Assembly (NCBI RefSeq): GCF_900143625.1
Contig: NZ_FRFF01000019.1
Location: 62,001-126,000 of the forward strand
Direction: 5' to 3'
Origin: Nocardiopsis sp. JB363
Lineage (GTDB): Bacteria; Actinomycetota; Actinomycetes; Streptosporangiales; Streptosporangiaceae
Length of the DNA stretch: 64,000 bases
Part shown: positions 10,522 to 21,526 of the stretch, in pieces
Position numbering within the stretch: position 1 is the first letter of the stretch
How the letters are laid out: each line of letters opens with the position of its first letter
Notes under the pieces: generated by a model
Database searches by the model: none
Seen by the model: the letters and a program-made list of their open reading frames with translations, nothing else
What the model was told of the DNA's origin: nothing
Translations under genes and position numbers: made by a program

Positions 10522-11631
10522 TCAGCCCTCGTACTCCCAGTGCCAGGGTTCGAAGGGGCTGGACTTGGCCCACGCCGGGTGGACCCAGCCGTGCGCCCCC
10601 CCGTTGGTCTCCATCCAGTTCCACTTCTCGGAACGGAAGTTCTGGATACCGCAGCCCAGGTCGATCGCCTGTCCCAGACCGTGGTTGCTCGTGCCCGGGA
10701 CCGCGGCGAAACCGGGCGCCACCTCCCCGTACACGCGGTGTTGGTTGGGCAGGTCGCGGTAGGAGCTGGTGATGCAGATGTTCTCGCCGTACTGCTCGAC
10801 GTGCTCCATGTTGAGTTCGAGGAAGGCCTTCGCGGCGTCCGCTCTCAGGAAGTGCCCTTCGTACATCTCGCACAGGGAATCCTGTGGCAGCAGCCCGTTG
10901 GGGTAGCCGTCCGCCTTGGAACCCGCCGAGGCGTCACAGTCCGCCGCGGCCATGAAGGTGTCGGGGTCCAGACCGCGTGATTCCAGCTCGTCGGTGAGCG
11001 CGTTGGTGCTCTCCTCGGACTGGGCACGCAGGTCGTCCACCCGAGCGGCGAGTTCCGCCTGCTCCAGCTGGGTGAAGGTCTGTAGCTCCTGGGCCTCGCT
11101 CGCCAACCCGACCTGCTCCTCACGCAGGTCCGTGGCGTCCTGGATGAGCGCCTGATTGTCCTCGGACAGCTTGGCGGCGTAGGACTGGGTCTGGAGATCC
11201 TCGTCGAGGTCACCGGTGGCGAGGATGCCGAGCAGTCCGGCGTCGGGCTGCTGGTACATGGTGCTGGCGAGCTGGGCGAGTGGTTCGCGCATCTCACCGA
11301 GGTCGACCTCGATCTGCTGGAGGTCGTGGAGCGTCCCGACCAGGTCCTCCTGGGCCGATTCCATGGCCTCCTGCCGCTCGACGTACTCGTCGGTGGCGTC
11401 TTCCAGCTCCTGGGTCGCGTCCTCGGCGTTGCCCCGAAGATCCTCAAGGCTGGCCTCGGCGGAAGCGGGCGCCAATGCGGCGTGCGGCAATGGGACGACG
11501 AGCAGCGCGGTGACCAGCACGAGCGTCAGCGCCTGCGTCATCCGGACCCGCTGCGACGGGCTCAGGGCGGCCAGCGCCCCGCCACGCGACATGCGGAACC
11601 TGCGCCGCGCCGAATCAGAAGTGAACGGCAC
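10522..11631 (-). CDS. Secreted M15 (VanY-like) carboxypeptidase with coiled-coil domain
   Basis: A 369-residue exported protein. It has a basic N-region and a hydrophobic signal segment (about 31-55). A long Glu/Gln/Leu-rich coiled coil follows (about 60-215), and then a C-terminal VanY/M15 domain that should trim D-Ala-D-Ala peptides in the wall. The zinc site is visible as SNHGLGQAIDLG and the terminal PFEPWHWEY; SSYRDLPNQHRVYG precedes it. The coiled coil resembles that of NlpC/P60 and division-linked hydrolases and may control access. GTG at 11631 is chosen because GGAGG lies seven bases upstream; ATG 11592 is an alternative. Confidence 0.88.
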   Translation of the reverse strand: MPFTSDSARRRFRMSRGGALAALSPSQRVRMTQALTLVLVTALLVVPLPHAALAPASAEASLEDLRGNAEDATQELEDATDEYVERQEAMESAQEDLVGTLHDLQQIEVDLGEMREPLAQLASTMYQQPDAGLLGILATGDLDEDLQTQSYAAKLSEDNQALIQDATDLREEQVGLASEAQELQTFTQLEQAELAARVDDLRAQSEESTNALTDELESRGLDPDTFMAAADCDASAGSKADGYPNGLLPQDSLCEMYEGHFLRADAAKAFLELNMEHVEQYGENICITSSYRDLPNQHRVYGEVAPGFAAVPGTSNHGLGQAIDLGCGIQNFRSEKWNWMETNGGAHGWVHPAWAKSSPFEPWHWEYEG

Positions 11632-12004
11632 GAATGATCCTCCGGCTGCTTTTCCTCGAACATCTACTCGTGGCCGCATGGCAACGTACTACATGTCCAC
11701 ATACGGACACACTGGACAGTTCCATACGGCGGCCACTGCCACGGGCGTCGAGTCGTTCCCCTTCGGGGCGTCCCACTCGACCCCCGGCTGAAGGCCTGGT
11801 CATCGGGTCACCGATAGATGTCACGTCCATCAACCCACAGTGACCGTAACGCTCAAGGCGTCATAATCACGACACGCGACATGAACAACATCACACCGTC
11901 ACCAGGACAACCAATCGTAGGTCAGCGTACTCTGCCGCGCACACAGCGTGCCCCCGCAGTACTGTCGGAACATCAATCGGCATCCCATGCACGCCCATCC
12001 TGAG
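11632..12004. other. AT-richer intergenic region before tRNA-Arg
   Basis: About 370 bases without a supported gene separate the peptidase gene from tRNA-Arg. The stretch 11810-12000 is clearly less G+C-rich. It must hold the peptidase promoter reading leftwards, but I could not assign boxes with confidence. Short frames here lack ribosome sites and coding bias. Confidence 0.5.
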
Positions 12005-12686: not shown

Positions 12687-13925
12687 TCAGAGGAAGCTAC
12701 GCCACGGGGCCAGGACGATCTCGCTGAACTTGGCCATGACGGGGCGGCCGCGCCACTCCTCCTCGGTCAGCTCACGGGCGTTGGTGAGGTCGGTGTCGAA
12801 GACCCGCTCCAGGTGCTCGGCCACACCCTCGTCGAAGAGCTCCACGTTGATCTCGTAGTTGCCGATGAGGCTGAGCCGGTCCACGTTGGCGGTGCCGATG
12901 GTGCTCCACCGGCCGTCCACCGTGGCGGTCTTGGCGTGCACCATCGTGCCCTGGTAGAGCCACAGCCGCACCCCTCCGCGGAGCAGCTCGGAGTAGCGAC
13001 CGCGCGCCAGCCAGTCCGCGACGACGTGGTTGGAGTTCTCCGGGACGAGGACGTTGACGTCCACCCCCCGGCCGGCGGCCCCGATGAGCGCGTTGGTGAG
13101 CTCTTGGTCGGGGATGAAGTACGCCTGGGTGAAGAGCACCCTGTCCTTGGCGCGGTCCAGCGCCTCCAGTAACATCGCCCGAATCGGGTAGATGAGCTGT
13201 TCGGGAATGTTGCGGTGGACACGGATGCGGGGGTCCCACTCGGTCGCGCCCAACCCGTCCAGTTCGGGCTCGTTCGCGGCCTTGTTGCTGTTCCAGAAGT
13301 CGACGAAGGCGTTCTCCAGCTCCCACACCACCGGGCCGGCCACCCGTAGGTGGGTGTCGCGCCACTCCATCGCGTAGGTGGAGCCGACGTTGAACCCGCC
13401 GACGAAACCGACCTCGCCGTCGACGCTGAGGATCTTGCGGTGGTCCCGGCCGGACTTGCGCACGTCCAGGAGCAGCATCCCGAGCCGGAACACCGGGTAG
13501 CGCAGGACCCGTACCGAGGATGGGAACTCGAAGAACCGACGGGGCACCACCAGGTTCGCGAAACCGTCGTAGACGACGTACACCTCGACACCGCGTTCGG
13601 CCGCCTCGATCAGAGCGTCCTTGAATTCTCGGCCGACGGCGTCGGACTTGATGATGAAGGACTCGAAGAGGACGCGACGGCGGGCACCGCGGATGGCCCC
13701 GAGCATGTCCTCGAACAGGTCGGCGCCATAGGTGTAGACGGTGGTGGTGTTGCCCCCGATCGGCAGGGACGTGGGTTCGGTACGGGGAAAGTTCACCCGG
13801 TGCGGGCGCACCTTCTTTCGCCAGTGGTCGATCCCGATGAGGGTCGCCACCACGGCGATCTGAGTGGCGAGGAGCCCCAAGAGCCCTCGCCGAACCCAGG
13901 TCATGACGGTAGAACGTCTCAGCAT
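12687..13925 (-). CDS. Cardiolipin synthase-like phospholipase D family protein
   Basis: A 412-residue membrane-anchored protein with two HKD motifs: DHRKILSVDGEVGFVGG near 155-170 and HAKTATVDGRWSTIGTAN near 327-345, each with a downstream Asn/Gly pair. One N-terminal transmembrane helix (about 11-30) anchors it, unlike bacterial cardiolipin synthases that usually have two. PLD enzymes form a phosphatidyl-histidine intermediate and transfer or hydrolyse the phosphatidyl group. It probably makes cardiolipin from two lipids, but another phospholipid transfer is possible. GGGAGG stands seven bases before ATG 13925. Confidence 0.85.
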   Translation of the reverse strand: MLRRSTVMTWVRRGLLGLLATQIAVVATLIGIDHWRKKVRPHRVNFPRTEPTSLPIGGNTTTVYTYGADLFEDMLGAIRGARRRVLFESFIIKSDAVGREFKDALIEAAERGVEVYVVYDGFANLVVPRRFFEFPSSVRVLRYPVFRLGMLLLDVRKSGRDHRKILSVDGEVGFVGGFNVGSTYAMEWRDTHLRVAGPVVWELENAFVDFWNSNKAANEPELDGLGATEWDPRIRVHRNIPEQLIYPIRAMLLEALDRAKDRVLFTQAYFIPDQELTNALIGAAGRGVDVNVLVPENSNHVVADWLARGRYSELLRGGVRLWLYQGTMVHAKTATVDGRWSTIGTANVDRLSLIGNYEINVELFDEGVAEHLERVFDTDLTNARELTEEEWRGRPVMAKFSEIVLAPWRSFL

Positions 13926-14169
13926 ACGGTCGCCTCCCGGAACAGGCCGTCTGCCGCGGGCCGCCCCTGGGGTGCGGCCCGGCACAGTTTGTGGTCCAAC
14001 CGTATCCGGCCGTGCACGGTAAGCCTCGAACGAACCGTTTCCCCGGGCCGGGTCGGTCCCCTTCGAGACGGTGCTCCCAGAAGTCACAAAGCTCACTGTG
14101 AGCAGCCATGGCCCCGCTCTCACACCGGTTCCCGGGGTCCTCCCGCCACAGCGCCGCCACCGGATCGAC

Positions 14170-14760
14170 TCAGTCCGCCCTGGACGCCACCACGTGCTCG
14201 ACCAGGCCGAACACGGTCCGCCCGTGTTCCAGGACCGTGAACCCCACCTCCTGGGCGATCGCCCTGGGCAGGCGCCTCGGGTTCGCCTTCCGTTCCTCCC
14301 GTTTCCGGCCGGGCCACCGCGTGTACTCGATATGGTCGACGAGCAGGAGCAGTCCGCCGGGGCGCAGCACCCGCCGCATCTGTTCCAGGGCCCGGCGTTG
14401 GTCGGGGATGACGCAGAACGCCAGGGCACAGACCACCGTGTCGAAGTCGGAGTCGGCGAACCCCAGGTCCTGGGCATCGTCCTCCCTCAGGTCCACTTGC
14501 AGGCCCGACCGGGTGGCCCGTTCACGGGCGCGGGCGAGCATCTCCGGGCTGAGGTCGACCCCGCTGAGTTCCACCCCACCGGGGTAGTACGGCAGGTTGT
14601 GGCCGCTACCGACCGCCACCTCCAGCACCCGGCCACGCGCCCGTGCGCACAGCCGTTCCCTGGTCCTTCCGACGAGGAGACGCTGGAGCCGCTCCCCGCG
14701 GTCGTACGTGTTCGCGGCGCGGTCCCAGTCACCGCGCACCCGCCTGGTCCGTTCGTCCAT
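14170..14760 (-). CDS. Class I SAM-dependent methyltransferase
   Basis: A 196-residue UbiE/Methyltransf_11-like enzyme. SAM motif I is VLEVAVGSGHNLPYYP (about 45-60), followed by the acidic loop VDLSPEML, the DDAQDLGFADSDFDTVVCALAFCVI segment and RRVLRPGGLLLLVDHIEY. The substrate is unknown; small molecules such as phospholipids or arsenicals are handled by this family. AGGAGG lies 5-6 bases before ATG 14760. It is divergent from a MerR regulator across 45 bp that hold a MerR-type promoter, so it is very probably that regulator's target. Confidence 0.85.
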   Translation of the reverse strand: MDERTRRVRGDWDRAANTYDRGERLQRLLVGRTRERLCARARGRVLEVAVGSGHNLPYYPGGVELSGVDLSPEMLARARERATRSGLQVDLREDDAQDLGFADSDFDTVVCALAFCVIPDQRRALEQMRRVLRPGGLLLLVDHIEYTRWPGRKREERKANPRRLPRAIAQEVGFTVLEHGRTVFGLVEHVVASRAD

Positions 14761-14784
14761 GTCGGCCTCCTTGACATCGGGACC

Positions 14785-14815
14785 AGTCTGGAACTTCATG
14801 TGGACATGAGGTCAA
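14785..14815 (-). promoter_or_regulatory. MerR-type promoter with 19-bp spacer and central palindrome
   Basis: On the minus strand TTGACC (14810-14815) and CAGACT (14785-14790) are separated by 19 bp. Within the spacer and its edge, TCATGT-CC-ACATGA (14795-14808) is a perfect palindrome. Over-long spacers with a central dyad are the hallmark of promoters activated by MerR-family proteins. The palindrome also covers the merR start codon, so binding should affect merR itself. Confidence 0.7.
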
Positions 14816-15168
14816 GTGAGAAGGAACGCGGAGAGCTTTCCATCGGCGATCTGGCGGCCGAGTACGGGTTGGCCCCGCACGTGCTTCGGCACTGGGAAGA
14901 GGTCGGTGTGCTGATCCCCGCCCGGCGCCAGGGCGGGCGGCGACGCTACACCGAGGAGCATCGATGCCGTGTCGAGGTGGTGCTCAGGGCCCAGCGCGCC
15001 GGGATGAGCCTGGCCCGGATCCGCGAGGTCCTGGACAACCCGGACCCGGCGGAGCGGCGGGCGATCCTGACCGCGCACCTGGCGGACCTGGAGGAGCGCA
15101 TGACCCTGCTGTGCGAGGCCCGGGAAATCGTCGAGCAGGAGATGGTCTGCCGGCACGAACAGCCCTGA
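14806..15168 (+). CDS. MerR family transcriptional regulator
   Basis: A 120-residue regulator with the winged-helix start LSIGDLAAEYGLAPHVLRHWEEVGVLIPARRQGGRRRYTEEH (split: residues about 10-50). A dimerisation helix follows, ending in ARIREVLDNPDPAERRAILTAHLADLEERM. No Cys cluster for metal sensing is obvious; the effector is unknown. ATG at 14806 has no good ribosome site, so the transcript may be leaderless, or the ATG at 14798 may be used. It stands back to back with the methyltransferase gene. The next gene, STM4015-like, follows 80 bp later on the same strand. Confidence 0.88.
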   Translation: MRSSEKERGELSIGDLAAEYGLAPHVLRHWEEVGVLIPARRQGGRRRYTEEHRCRVEVVLRAQRAGMSLARIREVLDNPDPAERRAILTAHLADLEERMTLLCEAREIVEQEMVCRHEQP

Positions 15169-15248: not shown

Positions 15249-16319
15249 ATGAACGGCGAACACCTCACCGAGTACGCGGGACTACCCGTGGTGGACTTCC
15301 TGTCGGAGGGCGTCGAGAAGGACTACCTGCGCGCGGCTTCCCACCAGGCCCGTAGGAACGGCGAGGAGGCACCGACGTCCGTTCCTCAACGGGAGCGAAT
15401 GGACAAGGCCATGGCCGCCCCCGGTGACGTGGCCTGGCGACTGCGCGTCGGTGAGGACGGCGAGGAGCTCGCCGATTATCTGACCCGGTTCGTCCGCGAC
15501 GTGGACACCACCCGGATCGTCGCCCTGGTCATCGGTGACTGGGGGTTGTACGACGACCCCGAGGTCTCCTCCGTCGGGGTGCGGGACGCCCTCATCGAAC
15601 ACGCCGCCGCCTTCCCCGCGCTGCGCTCGCTGTTCTTCGGTGACCTCACGTACGAGGAGGCCGAGATCTCCTGGATCCAGCAGGACGATCTGGCGCCGCT
15701 CGTGGCCGCCTACCCTCGGCTGGCGGAACTGACGGTCCGTGGCACGGGCGACGGCGGCGGCTTCCCGGACGCGAGCACGCTGGCCTTGCGGGTGCCCGAG
15801 CACACCGGTCTGCGCTCCCTGACGCTCCAGAGCGGTGGCCTGCCAGGAAGCCTCGTACGCCAGGTCCTCTCCTGCGGACTACCGAATCTGGAGCACCTGG
15901 AGCTGTGGCTGGGCATCGACCAGTACGGCGGTGACGCCACCCCCGAGGACTTCGCCCCGTTGCTGTCCGGCGACGTCTTCCCGCGCCTGCGTCACCTGGG
16001 TCTGCGCAACGCCCAGGACACCGGCCTGTGGCTGCGCGCCCTGGTCGAGGCGCCCGTGCTCGCCCGTCTGACCACCGTGGACCTCTCCGAGGGTTCGCTG
16101 CGCGGCCGGGACGTGGACCACCTGCTCGCCTCGGTCCCCGCTCTGGCCCATCTGGAGAGCCTGGACCTGCATCACCACTACCTGTCGGAGGAGGACACGG
16201 AGCGGGTGCGCGCCGCGTTCGCGGCGGCAGGCCTGGAGGTGGACCTCTCCGAGCGCGAGGTGCCCGACAGCGACGACCCCGACGACGAGTACGCCTACTA
16301 CCCCTCCGTCACCGAGTGA
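15249..16319 (+). CDS. STM4015 family leucine-rich-repeat protein
   Basis: A 356-residue protein with repeated Leu-rich units from about residue 95 onward (for example LAELTVRGTG, LRSLTLQSGG, LEHLELWLG, LRHLGLRNA, LTTVDLSEGSL, LESLDLHHHYL), a repeat surface for protein binding. The acidic C-terminus ends DDPDDEYAYYPSVTE. There is no signal peptide, so it is cytoplasmic. It is the first gene of the cassette and its stop overlaps the next start by 4 bp. In Salmonella the same five families lie together; no function is known to me. It may be the scaffold or the substrate of the modifying enzymes. AGAAGGA precedes ATG 15249. Confidence 0.85.
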   Translation: MNGEHLTEYAGLPVVDFLSEGVEKDYLRAASHQARRNGEEAPTSVPQRERMDKAMAAPGDVAWRLRVGEDGEELADYLTRFVRDVDTTRIVALVIGDWGLYDDPEVSSVGVRDALIEHAAAFPALRSLFFGDLTYEEAEISWIQQDDLAPLVAAYPRLAELTVRGTGDGGGFPDASTLALRVPEHTGLRSLTLQSGGLPGSLVRQVLSCGLPNLEHLELWLGIDQYGGDATPEDFAPLLSGDVFPRLRHLGLRNAQDTGLWLRALVEAPVLARLTTVDLSEGSLRGRDVDHLLASVPALAHLESLDLHHHYLSEEDTERVRAAFAAAGLEVDLSEREVPDSDDPDDEYAYYPSVTE

Positions 16320-17479
16320 GCGTTCCCCTGGCCGGTCGGCCACTGGTCGTGGTGTGCGTGCCCGGTAACCGGCGCCGCACACTGTTCGCGGAGGCCGCGC
16401 GGGAGGCGGGGTGGCCCGAGCCGATGGTGCTGCCCTGGCACGAGCTGGCCGACCCGGCCGCGTCGCCGTCGCTGCCTCCCGGCGCGGTGGTGCGGGTGGA
16501 CTCACCGGGCGAGGACGTCACCACGGCCCGTCTACTGCGCGGATGGGCGACGGACCCCGACCTGTACCGGGCGGAGGGCACCGCCGACCAGCACCGTGGG
16601 TTCGTCCGCGCCCTGGACCGCCTGTCCGCCCTGGTGGTCGCCACCCCCGGCACGCACCTGGTGCAGGACCCGGCCGATCTGGTCGACATGTGCGACAAGC
16701 GCCGCGCCCACGCGCGTCTGGCGGCGGCCGAGGTACCGGTGGCGGACGCTCTGCCGGATCCGGTCACCGGCTACACGTCCCTGCGCGAGCGCATGGACGA
16801 GCACCGCCTGCGCCGGGTGTTCGTCAAACCCGCGCACGGTTCCTCCGCCTCCGGGGTGATCGCTCTGGCCACCGGAGGGGCGGGCAGGATCAAGGCGGTC
16901 ACCTCCGCCGACCTCACCCGGGCGGAGGACGGGTCGGTGATGCTGTTCAACTCGCTGCGACCGCGCACCTACACCACCGAGGCGGAGGTGGCGGCCGTCG
17001 TGGACGCTTTGGCCCCGGACGGCCTGCACGTGGAACGTTGGCTGCCCAAAGCCGGCTTCGACGGACGTGTGGTGGATCTGCGGGTACTGGTGGTCGCCGG
17101 CCGCGCCACCCACGTCGTGGTGCGTTCCTCACGCTCCCCGCTGACCAACCTGCACCTGGGCAACGCCCGTGGCGACGTGGACACGCTCCGGGAGAGCATG
17201 GGACCGCACTCGTGGCGGGAAGCCATGCTCACCGCGGAGGCGGCGGCCGGGGTCTTCGGTTCGACCCTGCACGCCGGGGTGGACCTGATGCTCTCCCCGG
17301 GGTGGCGCCGTTTCACGATCTGCGAGGTGAACGCCTTCGGCGATCTGCTCCCGCGGGTCCTGCACGAGGGCCGGAGCACGCACACCGAACAGTTGCACGC
17401 GCTCGCGACCGGCCGGTTCCCGTTGCCCTCCCCTCACTCCGACCCGTCACCCTCGACACCCACCTTGGAACACCGTTGA
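16316..17479 (+). CDS. STM4014 family ATP-grasp protein
   Basis: A 387-residue protein with an ATP-grasp-like layout. It has an N-terminal nucleotide-like domain (LVVVCVPGNRRRTLF), a central lid and Lys segment (RVFVKPAHGSSASGVIAL), RVVDLRVLVVAGRATHVVVRSS, and the metal-binding end HAGVDLMLSPGWRRFTICEVNAFGDLLP. ATP-grasp enzymes join a carboxylate to an amine or thiol through an acyl phosphate. GTG at 16316 overlaps the STM4015 stop (GTGA), the reason for this start. The C-terminal 25 residues are Pro/Ser-rich. The substrate is unknown; a peptide or protein carboxylate is a reasonable guess given two radical SAM partners. Confidence 0.82.
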   Translation: MSVPLAGRPLVVVCVPGNRRRTLFAEAAREAGWPEPMVLPWHELADPAASPSLPPGAVVRVDSPGEDVTTARLLRGWATDPDLYRAEGTADQHRGFVRALDRLSALVVATPGTHLVQDPADLVDMCDKRRAHARLAAAEVPVADALPDPVTGYTSLRERMDEHRLRRVFVKPAHGSSASGVIALATGGAGRIKAVTSADLTRAEDGSVMLFNSLRPRTYTTEAEVAAVVDALAPDGLHVERWLPKAGFDGRVVDLRVLVVAGRATHVVVRSSRSPLTNLHLGNARGDVDTLRESMGPHSWREAMLTAEAAAGVFGSTLHAGVDLMLSPGWRRFTICEVNAFGDLLPRVLHEGRSTHTEQLHALATGRFPLPSPHSDPSPSTPTLEHR

Positions 17480-17523
17480 ACACCAGTACGCCCGGGTCCA
17501 CCCGGCCGGGGGCCACCCCGGAC

Positions 17524-18369
17524 ATGAACACCGTGGTGGGCACGCACGACCTCCTCCTGCTCACCCTGGACACGCTGCGGTACGACGTGGCGGTCGAACT
17601 CGCCGCCGCCGGGCGCACGCCCCATCTGGCCCGGTTGCTGCCCGAGGGCGGCTGGGAGGAACGGCACGCGCCGGCGAGCTTCACCTACGCCTCCCACCTG
17701 GCGATGCTCGCCGGGTTCCTGCCCACACCCGCCGCGCCGGGACCGCACCCGCGTCTGTTCGCGGCGTCGTTCCCCGGCAGTGTGTCCACCGCCCCCGGCA
17801 CGTGGACCTTCGAGACCGCCGATCTGGCCTCCGGGCTGGCGGCCGAGGGCTATCACACCGCCTGTGTAGGCGGCACGGGTTTCTTCAATCGCCGGTCGGC
17901 GCTGGGGTCGGTGCTGCCGGACCTGTTCGCCGAGAGCCACTGGGAGGAGTCGTTCGGGGTCACCGATCCCCGTTCCTTCGAGAACCAGGTCGAACGCGCC
18001 GTGCGGATCAGCCGGAGCGTCCCCGCCGAACGTCCCCTGTTCCTGTTGTTGAACGTGGCCGCCCTGCATCAGCCCAACTGGTTCCACCGACCCGGAGCGA
18101 CCCGGGAGGACGGGGACACCCGTTCCAGCCACGCGGCCGCCCTGGAGTACGTGGACCGGCACCTACCGCCGCTCCTGGCGGCGATGGCCGCCCGACGCCC
18201 CTGTTTCGCGATCGTGTGCTCCGACCACGGCACCGCCTACGGCGAGGACGGTCACACCGGTCACCGGATCGGCCACGAGGTCGTGTGGACCGTCCCCTAC
18301 ACTCACGCGGTCCTGCCGCACGGCTACCGTTCCGAGGTCCCCGAAAGCTCCGAGGAGGCAGCGGCGTGA
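17524..18369 (+). CDS. STM4013/SEN3800 family sulfatase-fold hydrolase
   Basis: A 281-residue protein of the alkaline-phosphatase/sulfatase superfamily. Metal ligands are visible as LLLLTLDTLRYD (Asp16) and CSDHGTAYGEDGHTGHRIGHE (Asp234, His235 and following His). The nucleophile region APASFTYASHLAMLAGFLP carries Thr54/Ser57 where sulfatases have Cys/Ser, so it may cleave or transfer a phosphate or phospho-group rather than a sulfate. There is no signal peptide, unusual for sulfatases and consistent with a cytoplasmic biosynthetic role. TTG at 17476, overlapping the STM4014 stop, is a possible longer start. The stop overlaps STM4012 by 4 bp. Confidence 0.82.
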   Translation: MNTVVGTHDLLLLTLDTLRYDVAVELAAAGRTPHLARLLPEGGWEERHAPASFTYASHLAMLAGFLPTPAAPGPHPRLFAASFPGSVSTAPGTWTFETADLASGLAAEGYHTACVGGTGFFNRRSALGSVLPDLFAESHWEESFGVTDPRSFENQVERAVRISRSVPAERPLFLLLNVAALHQPNWFHRPGATREDGDTRSSHAAALEYVDRHLPPLLAAMAARRPCFAIVCSDHGTAYGEDGHTGHRIGHEVVWTVPYTHAVLPHGYRSEVPESSEEAAA

Positions 18370-19715
18370 GTATCGTCCCCATGACCGAAGCGGTGCGCGC
18401 GGACTCCCCGTACCGCTCGTACGTGTACGCCTACCCGCACAAGACCGCCTACCGTCCCTTCGATGATCGGCCCAGGTTGAGCGACCTGTGGCGGGGCGAG
18501 GACGTGAGCGCGCTGTCGTTGTACGCCCACATCCCGTTCTGCGAGATGCGGTGCGGGTTCTGCAACCTGTTGACCCGTTCCACTCCGCCGGCCGAGCAGG
18601 TCACCGCCTTCCTCGACGCCTTGGAACGGCAGGCCGAGGTGGTCGCCTCCTGCCTGCCCGAGGGCGCGTCGTTCGCCCGCGCGGCCCTGGGCGGCGGCAC
18701 CCCCACCTACCTGACCGACGAGGAACTCGTCCGCGTCTACGACCTGCTCGAACGCACCCTCGGTGTGGACCTGACCTCGATCCCCACCTCTGTGGAGACC
18801 TCGCCCGCCACCGCCACCCCGGACCGGTTGAGGGTGTTGGACGAGCGCGGCGCCACCCGGATCAGCATGGGCGTACAGAGCTTCATCGACAGTGAGGCGC
18901 ACGCCGCCGGACGGCCACAGAAGCGCACGGAGGTGGACCGCGCCCTGGCCGACATCCGGGCGTGCACCGACGCCGACCTCAACGTCGACCTCATCTACGG
19001 GATCGAGCGGCAGACCCCGGACACCTGGCGGTACTCGCTGGACACGGCGCTGTCGTGGCGGCCGGAGGAGGTCTACCTCTACCCGTTGTACGTGCGGCCG
19101 TTGACCGGGCTGGGCCGCCGTGCCCGGGAGTGGGACGACCACCGCCTGTCCCTGTACCGACAGGGCCGCGACCACCTGCGTGATCACGGCTACGAGCAGG
19201 TGTCCATGCGTATGTTCCGGCGGGCGGACGCCACCGAGGCGGCCGGCCCCGACTACTGCTGCCAGACCGACGGCATGGTGGGTCTGGGTTGCGGGGCGCG
19301 TTCGTACACCTGCGGCACCCACTACTCGTTCGACTACGCGGTGGGGGTGGGGAAGGTGCGGTCGATCATCGAGGACTACGTGGGTCGCGACGCCGAGGAC
19401 TTCGCCCGCGCCGAGGTGGGGTTCCACCTGGACGGGGAGGAACGTCGGCGCCGCCACGTCCTCCAGTCGCTGCTGAGGGTGGAGGGACTGGACGCGCGGG
19501 CCTACACCGAACGGTTCGGCGCCCACCCCGTGACGGACCTCGCCGAGGAGTTCGGCGCACTGGCCGCGCGCGGGTGGTTGGTCTCCGGGGAGGACTCCGT
19601 CGACGCGACGACGATCCGGCTCACCGAAGAGGGTCTGGCCCATTCCGACGCGATCGGCCCGGACCTGTTCTCGGTTCGGGTGAACCGGCTCATGGCCGAG
19701 TACGAGGCGGGGTGA
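18366..19715 (+). CDS. STM4012 family radical SAM protein (HemN/HemW-like)
   Basis: A 449-residue radical SAM enzyme. The cluster motif CEMRCGFC gives Cys59, Cys63 and Cys66 (CxxxCxxC). GGGTPTYL, SVETSPATATPDRLRVL and ATRISMGVQSF follow, as in coproporphyrinogen dehydrogenase relatives, with a HemN-like C-terminal part (DYCCQTDGMVGLGCGARSY). The chemistry on the substrate is unknown. GTG at 18366 is chosen for the GTGA overlap with STM4013; ATG 18381 is an alternative. It is not HemW itself, since the cassette partners and C-terminal Cys pattern differ. Confidence 0.85.
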   Translation: MSIVPMTEAVRADSPYRSYVYAYPHKTAYRPFDDRPRLSDLWRGEDVSALSLYAHIPFCEMRCGFCNLLTRSTPPAEQVTAFLDALERQAEVVASCLPEGASFARAALGGGTPTYLTDEELVRVYDLLERTLGVDLTSIPTSVETSPATATPDRLRVLDERGATRISMGVQSFIDSEAHAAGRPQKRTEVDRALADIRACTDADLNVDLIYGIERQTPDTWRYSLDTALSWRPEEVYLYPLYVRPLTGLGRRAREWDDHRLSLYRQGRDHLRDHGYEQVSMRMFRRADATEAAGPDYCCQTDGMVGLGCGARSYTCGTHYSFDYAVGVGKVRSIIEDYVGRDAEDFARAEVGFHLDGEERRRRHVLQSLLRVEGLDARAYTERFGAHPVTDLAEEFGALAARGWLVSGEDSVDATTIRLTEEGLAHSDAIGPDLFSVRVNRLMAEYEAG

Positions 19716-19719
19716 ACCC

Positions 19720-20652
19720 GTGCCGTCCGTCTCTCCCGTACCGCTTCCGGACCCGACCGTGGGTCCGCCCGCGCGCACTCCCCTGCCCGCTCACCTGACC
19801 CTGCTCTACCGGGGCCCGTTGGCCAGCTGCGACTACGACTGTCCGTACTGTCCGTTCGCCAAGCGCCGGGACTCCCCCGACACGTTGCGGGCGGACCGGG
19901 CCGCTCTGGAGCGTTTCACCGACTGGGTGGCCGAGCGGGCCGAAGCCGACCCCGGCACCCGGGTCTCGGTGCTGTTCACCCCTTGGGGCGAGGGCCTGGT
20001 CCGTTCCTGGTACCGGCGGGCGATCGTCCGGCTCAGCCGGCTGCCGCACGTGGATCGGGTGGCGATCCAGACCAACGTGAGCGGGCGGGTGGGCTGGCTC
20101 GCCGACTGCGACCTCGCCTCGGCCGCGCTGTGGACCACCTACCATCCCGGTGAGGTCTCCCACGAACGGTTCCTGGCCAAGGCGCGCGAGCTCCTCGACC
20201 TCGGCGTGCGGTTCAGCGTCGGCGTGGTGGGACTGCCCGAGCACCTGGCGGCGGCCGAGCTCATGCGCGCCGCCCTGCCCGAGGAGGTGTACCTGTGGGT
20301 GAACGCGGCCGAGGGTCTCTCCTACACCGACGCCGAAGCGGCGACGTGGCAGCGGATCGACCCGCACTTCCACTACAGCCGGCTGCCCCACCCCAGTCGT
20401 GATCTTCCCTGTCGTACCGGTGACAGTGTGCTGTCCGTGGAGGGGGACGGGAACGTACGGCGTTGCCACTTCGTGGATCGTTCCCTGGGCAACCTGTACG
20501 ACGGGTCCTTCCGTGACCGGCTCGGGCCCTCGGGGTGCCCGCTGACCACCTGCGACTGCCACATCGGGTACGTCCACCTGGAGTCCCTGGACCTGTACGA
20601 GGTGTTCCGGGGCGGGGTGATCGAGCGAATCCCGGATCTCCGTGGTTCCTGA
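19720..20652 (+). CDS. STM4011 family radical SAM protein with SPASM-like end
   Basis: A 310-residue radical SAM enzyme with CDYDCPYC (Cys37, Cys41, Cys44). Its C-terminal part carries Cys231-x12-Gly-x4-Cys249 and then Cys273-x4-Cys278-x-Cys280, a pattern close to the SPASM/twitch auxiliary iron-sulfur domain used by peptide-modifying radical SAM enzymes. That makes a peptide or protein substrate likely. The GTG start lies four bases after the STM4012 stop. The gene ends the cassette; a 67-bp gap follows before the HAD gene. I know of no assigned reaction. Confidence 0.85.
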   Translation: MPSVSPVPLPDPTVGPPARTPLPAHLTLLYRGPLASCDYDCPYCPFAKRRDSPDTLRADRAALERFTDWVAERAEADPGTRVSVLFTPWGEGLVRSWYRRAIVRLSRLPHVDRVAIQTNVSGRVGWLADCDLASAALWTTYHPGEVSHERFLAKARELLDLGVRFSVGVVGLPEHLAAAELMRAALPEEVYLWVNAAEGLSYTDAEAATWQRIDPHFHYSRLPHPSRDLPCRTGDSVLSVEGDGNVRRCHFVDRSLGNLYDGSFRDRLGPSGCPLTTCDCHIGYVHLESLDLYEVFRGGVIERIPDLRGS

Positions 20653-20719: not shown

Positions 20720-21526
20720 ATGGTCCTTCCCCGTGTCATCGCCACCGACCTCGACGGCACCCTCCTGGGCCGATCGGGTGAGGTCTCCGAACGCAACCGC
20801 AGGGCACTGAACGACGCCGTCGACGCCGGGGTACGGGTGGTCATCGTGACCGCCCGACCACCCCGTACCACCGCGGCCATCGCCGACCTGTTCGACTGCG
20901 CCGCCGTGGTCTGCGGAAACGGCGCCCACACCCAGAGACCCGACCGCGATCCGCTCGTCAGGGCGATCGACCGCGACACCTCCGGAACCCTCGTGGACAA
21001 GCTTCGAGGCGCTCTGCCCGGGGTCGGGTTCGCGGTGGAGACCGGCGTCGGCTTCTACCACGACGCCGACTACCGGCTGGAATCCTGGATGCTCCCCGAG
21101 TGGGTGAGCGGGGTTCTGGACGACACCGACTCCTTGTTGGCCGCGGCGAACCCCGTCACCAAACTCCTCGCCCGGTCCACCGCTATGCCCGTGCACCTGA
21201 TGCACGACGCGGCGCGCGATTCCGTCGGCCCCCTGGCGGAGGTGACCTACTCCGGTTCGGCCGGGTTGGTGGAGGTGAGCGCGCCCGGCGTGAACAAGGG
21301 GAGCACGCTGGCGCTGCTGTGCGAGGAGTGGGGGGTGTCCCGCGACGAGGTCGTGGCCTTCGGCGACATGCCCAACGACCGGTCCTCGCTCACCTGGGCG
21401 GGTTCCGGGTACGCGATGGAGAGCGGCCACCAGGAATTGCTCGACCCGGAGCTGGGGCTGTTGGTGGCCCCGCCCAGCCACGAGGACGGCGTGGGGCGCG
21501 TGGTGGAGCGACTGCTGCAGGGTTGA
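20720..21526 (+). CDS. HAD-superfamily (Cof-type) phosphatase
   Basis: A 268-residue Cof/class IIB HAD phosphatase, likely acting on small sugar or cofactor phosphates. Catalytic motifs are present: ATDLDGTLLG (nucleophile Asp) near residue 9, IVTARPPRTT, the Lys in GVNKGSTLALL near 195, and AFGDMPNDRSSL near 213. The cap domain lies between. It follows the STM401x cassette by 67 bp; whether it belongs to that operon is open, but no terminator is seen in the gap. Confidence 0.88.
   Translation: MVLPRVIATDLDGTLLGRSGEVSERNRRALNDAVDAGVRVVIVTARPPRTTAAIADLFDCAAVVCGNGAHTQRPDRDPLVRAIDRDTSGTLVDKLRGALPGVGFAVETGVGFYHDADYRLESWMLPEWVSGVLDDTDSLLAAANPVTKLLARSTAMPVHLMHDAARDSVGPLAEVTYSGSAGLVEVSAPGVNKGSTLALLCEEWGVSRDEVVAFGDMPNDRSSLTWAGSGYAMESGHQELLDPELGLLVAPPSHEDGVGRVVERLLQG

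Follow-up and report, generated by a model that had tools for sequence, protein, structure and literature searches.

The STM4015-STM4011 gene cassette of Nocardiopsis and a proposed ligation at the terminal glutamate of its leucine-rich-repeat protein

The C-terminus of a protein or peptide serves as the site of enzymatic addition in several described systems. RimK, a protein C-terminal glutamate ligase, acts on ribosomal protein S6, and the PEARL ligases are LanB-like enzymes. In RiPPs the core usually varies while the leader stays, and the graspetide macrocyclases link Ser, Thr or Lys to Glu or Asp of that core. The system closest to the locus described here is that of LysW, a small Zn-binding carrier with an EDWGE motif, in which LysX joins amino compounds to the C-terminal Glu (PMC10433800), the substrate being attached to the Glu gamma-carboxyl. 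In the pearlins (TglA/TmoA, with their PEARL ligases) the chemistry is likewise staged at the carrier C-terminus, and the tmo system includes a radical SAM enzyme (PMC9303977).

The locus lies in a window of 64,000 nucleotides, the whole stretch of DNA that was analyzed, from Nocardiopsis sp. JB363 (GCF_900143625.1, NZ_FRFF01000019.1, positions 62,001 to 126,000 of the forward strand). Its features are as follows, in window coordinates.

14071..15168, + strand: MerR-family regulator upstream of the cassette (Pfam MerR_1)
15249..16319, + strand: STM4015, leucine-rich-repeat (LRR) protein of 356 residues (NF038076, 346 bits, cut-off 275)
16299..16316, + strand: stretch coding for STM4015 residues 351-356, the C-terminal tail YPSVTE and proposed site of action
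16316..17479, + strand: STM4014, LysX/ArgX/RimK-like ATP-grasp enzyme (NF038074, 425 bits, cut-off 175)
17524..18369 (ATG 17524), + strand: STM4013, hydrolase of the alkaline-phosphatase superfamily, NPP-like (NF038075, 402 bits, cut-off 250)
18366..19715, + strand: STM4012, HemN-like radical SAM enzyme (NF006067, 622 bits, cut-off 380)
19720..20652, + strand: STM4011, radical SAM enzyme with auxiliary-cluster-like Cys (NF038073, 394 bits, cut-off 200)
20720..21526, + strand: Cof-type HAD-IIB hydrolase (Pfam Hydrolase_3), probable accessory cassette gene

All five cassette proteins exceed the NCBIfam cut-offs and are thus members of families whose model names are placeholders and give no function. 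A sequence-only reading of the DNA had described five genes in one direction, which they are, joined mostly by 4-bp overlaps, which is true in part: a GTGA overlap is present at STM4015/STM4014 and at STM4013/STM4012, but STM4012 and STM4011 are separated by a 4-base gap, and STM4014 and STM4013 overlap only if the latter starts at TTG 17476, whereas conservation prefers ATG 17524 and leaves a gap of 44 bases. An alternative start of STM4012 lies at ATG 18381. Since the gaps with the chosen starts measure only 44 and 4 bases, there is no room between the cassette genes for a separate small precursor gene, as that reading had also held; a RiPP short precursor with leader and variable core was not found between these genes, the LRR protein having 356 residues and an invariant end. 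Two further genes escaped the earlier reading, namely the HAD gene directly downstream of the cassette and a second STM4015 gene at another place in the Nocardiopsis genome.

The cassette is real and not a chance grouping, as judged from the full five-gene order in 94 of 110 distinct loci and from a search of 61 genomes of the window's family for STM4015, STM4014 and STM4011, in which one and the same set of 21 genomes had all three. The families are thus found together rather than apart. The arrangement 4015-4014-4013-4012-4011 is repeated in Actinomycetota, Salmonella, Methylobacterium, Paenibacillus and Deinococcus; the intact set is found in Salmonella, where the adjacency stated in the earlier reading holds in the same order (flanked by ompL and typA-glnA in the record examined), and in three further bacterial phyla. 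That the genes are mere neighbours without a shared pathway, brought together by chance or selfish clustering, could draw on the fifteen records of a plasmid collection which contain a relative of STM4013, yet this explanation is highly improbable given the conservation of order over four phyla, the identical presence of three families in the 21 genomes, and two split cassettes (G004 and G028) which retain STM4015, STM4014 and STM4011 in one genome. A phylum sample of 149 genomes, searched with STM4013 only, gave three matches over the cut-off, and one scan of viral contigs with STM4013 yielded no relative. The DNA of the Salmonella cassette had no megablast match in ecoli_genomes; one listed homologue, P0175, carries the name Escherichia coli. 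A Bacteroides locus (L131) looked like a minimal cassette without 4013 and 4012, but this reading was rejected: remnants of both genes, the beginning of the former and the last part of the latter, lie in the gap, and the locus is a damaged cassette.

A constant sixth gene, for which the earlier reading had recommended a search, was not found across the loci, although HAD and DUF6745 genes are common. The Cof-type HAD gene adjoins the cassette in 11 other actinobacterial loci and in Salmonella, and in a Bacteroides plasmid HAD is fused to 4011; it is probably an accessory cassette gene. Of 50 comparison loci, 6 have a MerR relative upstream of the cassette, 4 of these on the same strand, and the MerR-family protein possibly regulates the cassette. 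The DUF6745 proteins, frequent but not constant partners, were considered as a second substrate: the 72 among them that neighbour the cassette terminate in YxPxx[QE]T, with Thr as the last residue in 70. This candidate was rejected, since of 14 relatives from other places, drawn from 17 weaker matches, 12 have a Thr end as well, and the tail is therefore not cassette-specific. A His-rich DUF6745 neighbour of about 100 residues was rejected as a precursor peptide, having relatives in nine Microcystis-phage records (PHROG match); by eye, a look-alike stands beside one cassette-free DUF6745 gene (L145). A known anti-phage defence system was also set aside, as the PADLOC models gave no convincing match to seven proteins, the one match being PDC-M51A to STM4012 at 28.8 bits.

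Cassette LRR proteins are roughly 280-360 residues long, and STM4015 was modelled with high confidence (AF2, pLDDT 94.7) and matches by profile the solved protein 2ra8 (Q64V53_BACFR; E 1.1e-67), itself an STM4015-family member by profile, whose entry title gives no function. All 168 distinct cassette-linked copies terminate in Glu, with tails such as YVAVSE and YPSVTE, and the C-termini of enzymes from the same loci vary more. Among distant members, 115 of 120 tails still end in Glu. STM4015 genes often form tandem arrays of 2-5 copies preceding a single enzyme set, and the 21 family genomes hold 45 copies of 4015 against 21 each of 4014 and 4011. The polar residues of the repeats are conserved across phyla; immune-like recognition through LRR hypervariability was rejected, since the presumed concave-side positions, which were located with the help of the LRR consensus and of secondary structure rather than of coordinates, are conserved.

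The second gene does code for an ATP-grasp enzyme, as the earlier reading had it, according to both its family model and its fold matches. In a fold search the STM4014 model was closest to LysX, ArgX (solved with its carrier LysW), the graspetide ligase PsnB, fourth and just behind LysX and ArgX, and RimK, with other ATP-grasp enzymes within 1-3 Z of LysX, ArgX and RimK and a sequence match of E 0.27. From the model, STM4014 is predicted to be a ligase acting at the tail Glu of STM4015. The invariant Glu, the LysX/ArgX/RimK-like fold and the known chemistry of LysX at a C-terminal Glu together lead us to propose, with a probability of about 0.45, that STM4015 is the protein substrate or carrier of the cassette, to whose terminal Glu STM4014 would join an amino compound that the radical SAM pair would then rework. 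The suggestion in the sequence-only reading that the LRR protein may be the substrate thus gains support from this fold, from the invariant Glu and from the multiple copies of 4015 beside single-copy enzymes. The proposal builds on observations of gene content, order and co-occurrence, of copy numbers, of the conserved tail and of the similarity in fold, from which the chemistry is inferred.

As in LysW with LysX or ArgX, a protein with an invariant terminal Glu adjoins an ATP-grasp enzyme. Unlike that system, the candidate carrier is an LRR fold with tails of the YVAVSE/YPSVTE type where LysW is small, binds Zn and has EDWGE; the place of the amino-acid pathway enzymes is taken by a phosphodiesterase-like hydrolase and two radical SAM enzymes, and no peptidase is present among the five genes. 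The dedicated LRR partner and the radical SAM enzymes also distinguish the cassette from RimK. With the pearlins it would share a gene-encoded carrier whose C-terminus is the site of the chemistry, and the participation of radical SAM enzymes (as in tmo), but its ligase candidate is an ATP-grasp enzyme, its carrier is a folded LRR protein and none of the five genes codes for a protease; no PEARL ligase family appeared among the matches of nine proteins from the cassette and its surroundings.

STM4012 is a relative of HemN, as had been suggested, with profile matches to HemN 1olt (185 bits) and to NocN (124 bits), yet it falls under the cut-offs of the HemN and HemW models (TIGR00538, 113.9 versus 324.95 bits; TIGR00539, 129.3 versus 205.4 bits); its CxxxCxxC motif is invariant in 5/5 aligned sequences. 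In STM4011 the CxxxCxxC cysteines (C37, C41, C44) and five further ones (C231, C249, C273, C278, C280) are likewise invariant (5/5), and its C-terminal Cys region matches SkfB by profile (6efn, E 6.7e-5). The protein thus has the sequence features of SPASM/twitch enzymes, a CxxxCxxC motif with C-terminal auxiliary-cluster Cys, the clusters themselves being predicted, and the earlier label of SPASM-like fits it.

The resemblance of the enzymes to graspetide ligases (PsnB, MdnC) and to the sactisynthase SkfB, peptide-acting proteins among their best matches, raises another explanation, in which nothing is added from outside: either STM4014 would close an amide or ester bond within the molecule or STM4011 would introduce a crosslink into the YxAVxE tail, in the manner of graspetides, sactipeptides or cyclophanes, with the LRR domain serving as an oversized leader. 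The frequency of Tyr or Phe at -6 (164 of 168 distinct linked copies) and of Val at -3 (158 of 168) is in line with such crosslinking, which we nevertheless hold to be unlikely. The last eight residues of STM4015 offer no invariant Ser, Thr or Lys to a macrocyclase, and the Tyr is missing from several distant tails which retain the Glu. Furthermore, there is no short precursor gene between the cassette genes, and the tail is conserved where a core would usually vary: tandem copies are on average 59% identical overall and 78% over the last six residues, the opposite of the usual RiPP pattern.

The main evidence against chemistry at the tail is structural. The tail is confidently placed in the model and aligns to the end in 2ra8, where it appears ordered, so that a structural role is possible. 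STM4015 could then be a scaffold or sensor for enzymes which make a free small molecule, its tail an unmodified docking or capping element; the conserved polar LRR residues could bind a partner or ligand, a WGR domain is present on many distant members, and the Glu is kept in five of seven 4015 genes that have no adjacent enzymes. This alternative is doubtful, however, since a capping element should be able to bear residues beyond the last one, yet every distinct linked copy stops at the Glu, and the rise in STM4015 copy number beside single 4014 and 4011 genes better suits a consumed substrate than a regulator. Moreover, every one of the 21 genomes with 4015 over the cut-off also carries both enzymes.

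STM4013 had been called a sulfatase-fold hydrolase, a term which stands as a superfamily name. Its nearest solved relatives by profile are nucleotide pyrophosphatases/phosphodiesterases (NPP 2gsn, E 1.6e-8), and the nucleophile of formylglycine sulfatases, Cys or Ser, is absent in all six aligned members, which have Thr54 at this position, aligned with a Thr of 2gsn. By sequence, STM4013 looks more like the nucleotide phosphodiesterases than the sulfatases. Relatives outside the cassette (L049 and L050) adjoin NUDIX, kinase-like and MoaA-like genes, neighbours suggestive of phosphoryl chemistry.

Under the proposed carrier reading, the LRR domain would be the recognition body that offers the tail to the enzymes, as the conservation of its polar repeat residues suggests. 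STM4014 would use ATP to activate a carboxylate of the tail and couple it in an (iso)peptide bond, the reaction that LysX and ArgX carry out with LysW; the radical chemistry of STM4011 and STM4012 would be directed at the attached group or at adjacent tail residues; and STM4013, with the HAD hydrolase where present, may remove a phosphoryl or nucleotidyl group. Because no peptidase is coded among the five genes, the product would either remain on the protein or be freed by a host peptidase, and tandem copies with the same tail would supply more of the same carrier or variants of it. The notion of a modification system, put forward in the sequence-only reading, is thus supported in part: the co-occurrence, the lack of room for a separate precursor gene and the SPASM-like STM4011 agree with it, its sulfatase label is less well supported, and a constant sixth gene was not found.

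No paper on the function of the STM4011-STM4015 genes or their partners was found in searches of the open literature, nor was one found there for 2RA8/Q64V53; two papers name STM4015 or STM4013, only as table entries. The present analysis places the crystal structure 2ra8 within a family and, by singling out the terminal Glu of STM4015 as the residue and STM4014 as the enzyme, offers for an anonymous cluster a reaction that can be put to the test. If the proposal is true, carrier-protein biosynthesis would reach beyond small Zn proteins and peptides to include LRR proteins, with two radical SAM enzymes taking part. A bolder and rather improbable extension is that the decorated LRR protein is itself the product, a protein-borne cofactor or warhead that Salmonella, Deinococcus, Paenibacillus and soil actinomycetes may share; its Glu would be offered to an ATP-grasp ligase, and two radical SAM enzymes would then build a small group there.

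The five genes lie where the sequence-only reading had placed them, and each passes its NCBIfam cut-off; two upstream neighbours are listed with them:

10522-11679, minus strand: protein with a VanY-like D-Ala-D-Ala carboxypeptidase domain, upstream
12687-14477, minus strand: PLD-type cardiolipin synthase-like protein, upstream
15249..20652, plus strand: STM4015 (leucine-rich-repeat protein), STM4014 (ATP-grasp), STM4013 (hydrolase), STM4012 and STM4011 (radical SAM)

No link to the cassette is seen for the two upstream genes. The 4-bp overlaps reported for most junctions are clear at two of the four; that of STM4014/STM4013 depends on the start chosen, and STM4012/STM4011 are separated by a 4-base gap. 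As argued earlier, the cassette cannot accommodate an additional short gene for a precursor. The host is an actinobacterium with a 7.07-Mb genome, and the closest STM4015 homologues among the matches listed, where named, are mostly from Nocardiopsis.

Gene order was mapped at 112 loci (110 distinct), comprising the best 80 of 457 confirmed in one genome_contigs scan (all those kept being Actinomycetota, judged by title), 28 drawn from genomes of the family and four from named plasmid records. The order 15-14-13-12-11 with a single STM4015 occurs in 47 of the 110, and two to five STM4015 genes precede one 14-13-12-11 set in another 46. One locus has a doubled STM4013 match, two lack STM4014 beside other cassette genes, seven carry STM4015 alone and the remaining seven are partial cassettes. 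The clustering known from Salmonella is borne out by the full order in a named record, found also in those of Paenibacillus, Deinococcus psychrotolerans and Methylobacterium; outside the map, two further Deinococcus records and a Streptomyces plasmid show it with two STM4015 genes each. A Bacteroides finegoldii plasmid cassette (L131:9808-12748) keeps STM4015, STM4014 and STM4011 around a remnant consisting of the STM4013 start and STM4012 end, with STM4011 fused to a HAD domain. The genes surrounding STM4015 on a Calothrix plasmid are mostly annotated hypothetical. Since typA, glnA, glnL and glnG adjoin the cassette in L045 (NZ_CP019203.1, Salmonella, labelled plasmid), this record may be a mislabelled chromosomal piece. 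Salmonella-type STM4015 stretches in four phage-labelled records (H49, H51-H53), two of them below 3 kb and two with the stretch at the record start, are possibly host DNA.

Among 61 family genomes, STM4015, STM4014 and STM4011, the families covered by this comparison (STM4013 and STM4012 were sought in loci only), exceed the cut-off in an identical set of 21, with 45, 21 and 21 copies, respectively. In G004 and G028, STM4014 stands apart from the other enzymes, yet lies elsewhere beside an STM4015 gene or fragment. STM4013-like hydrolases outside the cassette, accompanied by a NUDIX hydrolase (L049:8693-10856 and L050:6768-10184), represent a second cluster type: the Kitasatospora locus also encodes a thymidylate-kinase-like protein together with a radical SAM enzyme resembling MoaA, and that of S. 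albidoflavus a gene annotated lasso peptide B2. Another distant relative (131 bits) is encoded in the window's genome at G000:C167:130819-131676.

The constant sixth gene envisaged earlier did not emerge from 50 loci plus the window (ORFs of at least 90 aa); as neither the HAD nor the DUF6745 partner is constant, the core comprises five genes. The gene after STM4011 encodes a Cof-type HAD hydrolase in the window and at 11 further loci, of which nine are from Nocardiopsis, one is from Streptomonospora and one is labelled Glycomyces, as well as in Salmonella, where the two genes overlap; counting the B. finegoldii fusion, the hydrolase accompanies 14 of 107 loci with STM4011, window included, and D. 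taeanensis has a weak, more distant match. DUF6745 and a His-rich partner of ~100 aa make up a two-gene unit (L047:12013-13334, L048:5489-6814). Of 100 distinct loci with STM4011, 70 have this pair next to the cassette, those of Deinococcus and Methylobacterium among them, its position varying between loci. Thirteen of the 21 cassette genomes have strong DUF6745 matches (at least 330 bits), always on the STM4011 contig, against none of the other 40; the window's genome has no match. DUF6745 is also found away from the cassette, and the His-rich protein has Microcystis phage relatives.

STM4015 ends in a short motif preceded by an acidic linker of variable length. Glu is terminal in all 170 closed cassette-linked copies; among the 168 distinct ones, position -3 is Val in 158, -4 Ala/Ser in 154 and -6 Tyr/Phe in 164. 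Last-residue entropy is 0.10 bits, against 2.73 (STM4014), 3.00 (STM4013), 1.36 (STM4012, the least ragged) and 3.14 (STM4011) for the enzymes of the same loci, which served as internal control. Of 1918 matches in one protein search and 372 in a second, 120 each were listed, with terminal Glu in 117 and 115, respectively; the exceptions were two Asp endings, rows that are fragmentary or altered (P0023, P0171, P0203), one that reads through into STM4014 (P0124), an in-frame STM4015-STM4014 join (P0169) and a seven-member cluster ending in Asn (P0200). In the 372-match search, whose named sources include Parabacteroides, Tannerellaceae, Paenibacillus, Undibacterium and Nostoc, Tyr is not constant among the 120 listed, while Glu nearly is.

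The simplest account using all parts, to which we assign a probability of about 45%, is carrier-protein chemistry at this C-terminus: STM4014 would load an amino compound onto it, STM4011 and STM4012 would rework the compound, and STM4013 and the HAD enzyme would trim phosphoryl groups. Of this, anatomy, distribution, tail conservation and fold similarity are shown. Against it, the fold is common to many ATP-grasp enzymes, the five genes include no peptidase, and DUF6745 has conserved C-termini away from the cassette as well. Crosslinking of the tail is a less likely alternative.

Against the carrier account, Glu is also mostly retained where STM4015 lacks neighbouring enzymes: in five of seven copies, lost in L026 and L028 (the eighth, L027, at a contig end, was left out). 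Loss in 2/7 lone versus 0/170 linked copies gives p 0.001 (Fisher's test, uncorrected for relatedness). One of the seven is the second STM4015 of the window's genome (L007, G000:C179:83230-84093; tail WRFPSATE); the 19 kb read at that locus encode none of the cassette enzymes. Two further lone copies, from S. cadmiisoli (L136) and Calothrix (L132), retain Glu; the latter, a cyanobacterial STM4015 (L132:2014-3288), has a long N-terminal extension and the tail RYCSVAE, and its relatives include a Nostoc protein named GUN4 domain protein. The tail is moreover confidently modelled, and the alignment with 2ra8, by profile a solved structure of the family, covers it completely. That STM4015 is an unmodified scaffold or sensor is as likely as crosslinking.

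No functional paper on the cassette genes or their partners was found in open-licence full texts; other journals may hold some. By analogy, carrier chemistry on STM4015 would work much as in the amino-group carrier systems (LysW with LysX/ArgX). These feature a small Zn-carrier, which is not found here, and the cassette would therefore be a variant, rather than a member, of those systems.
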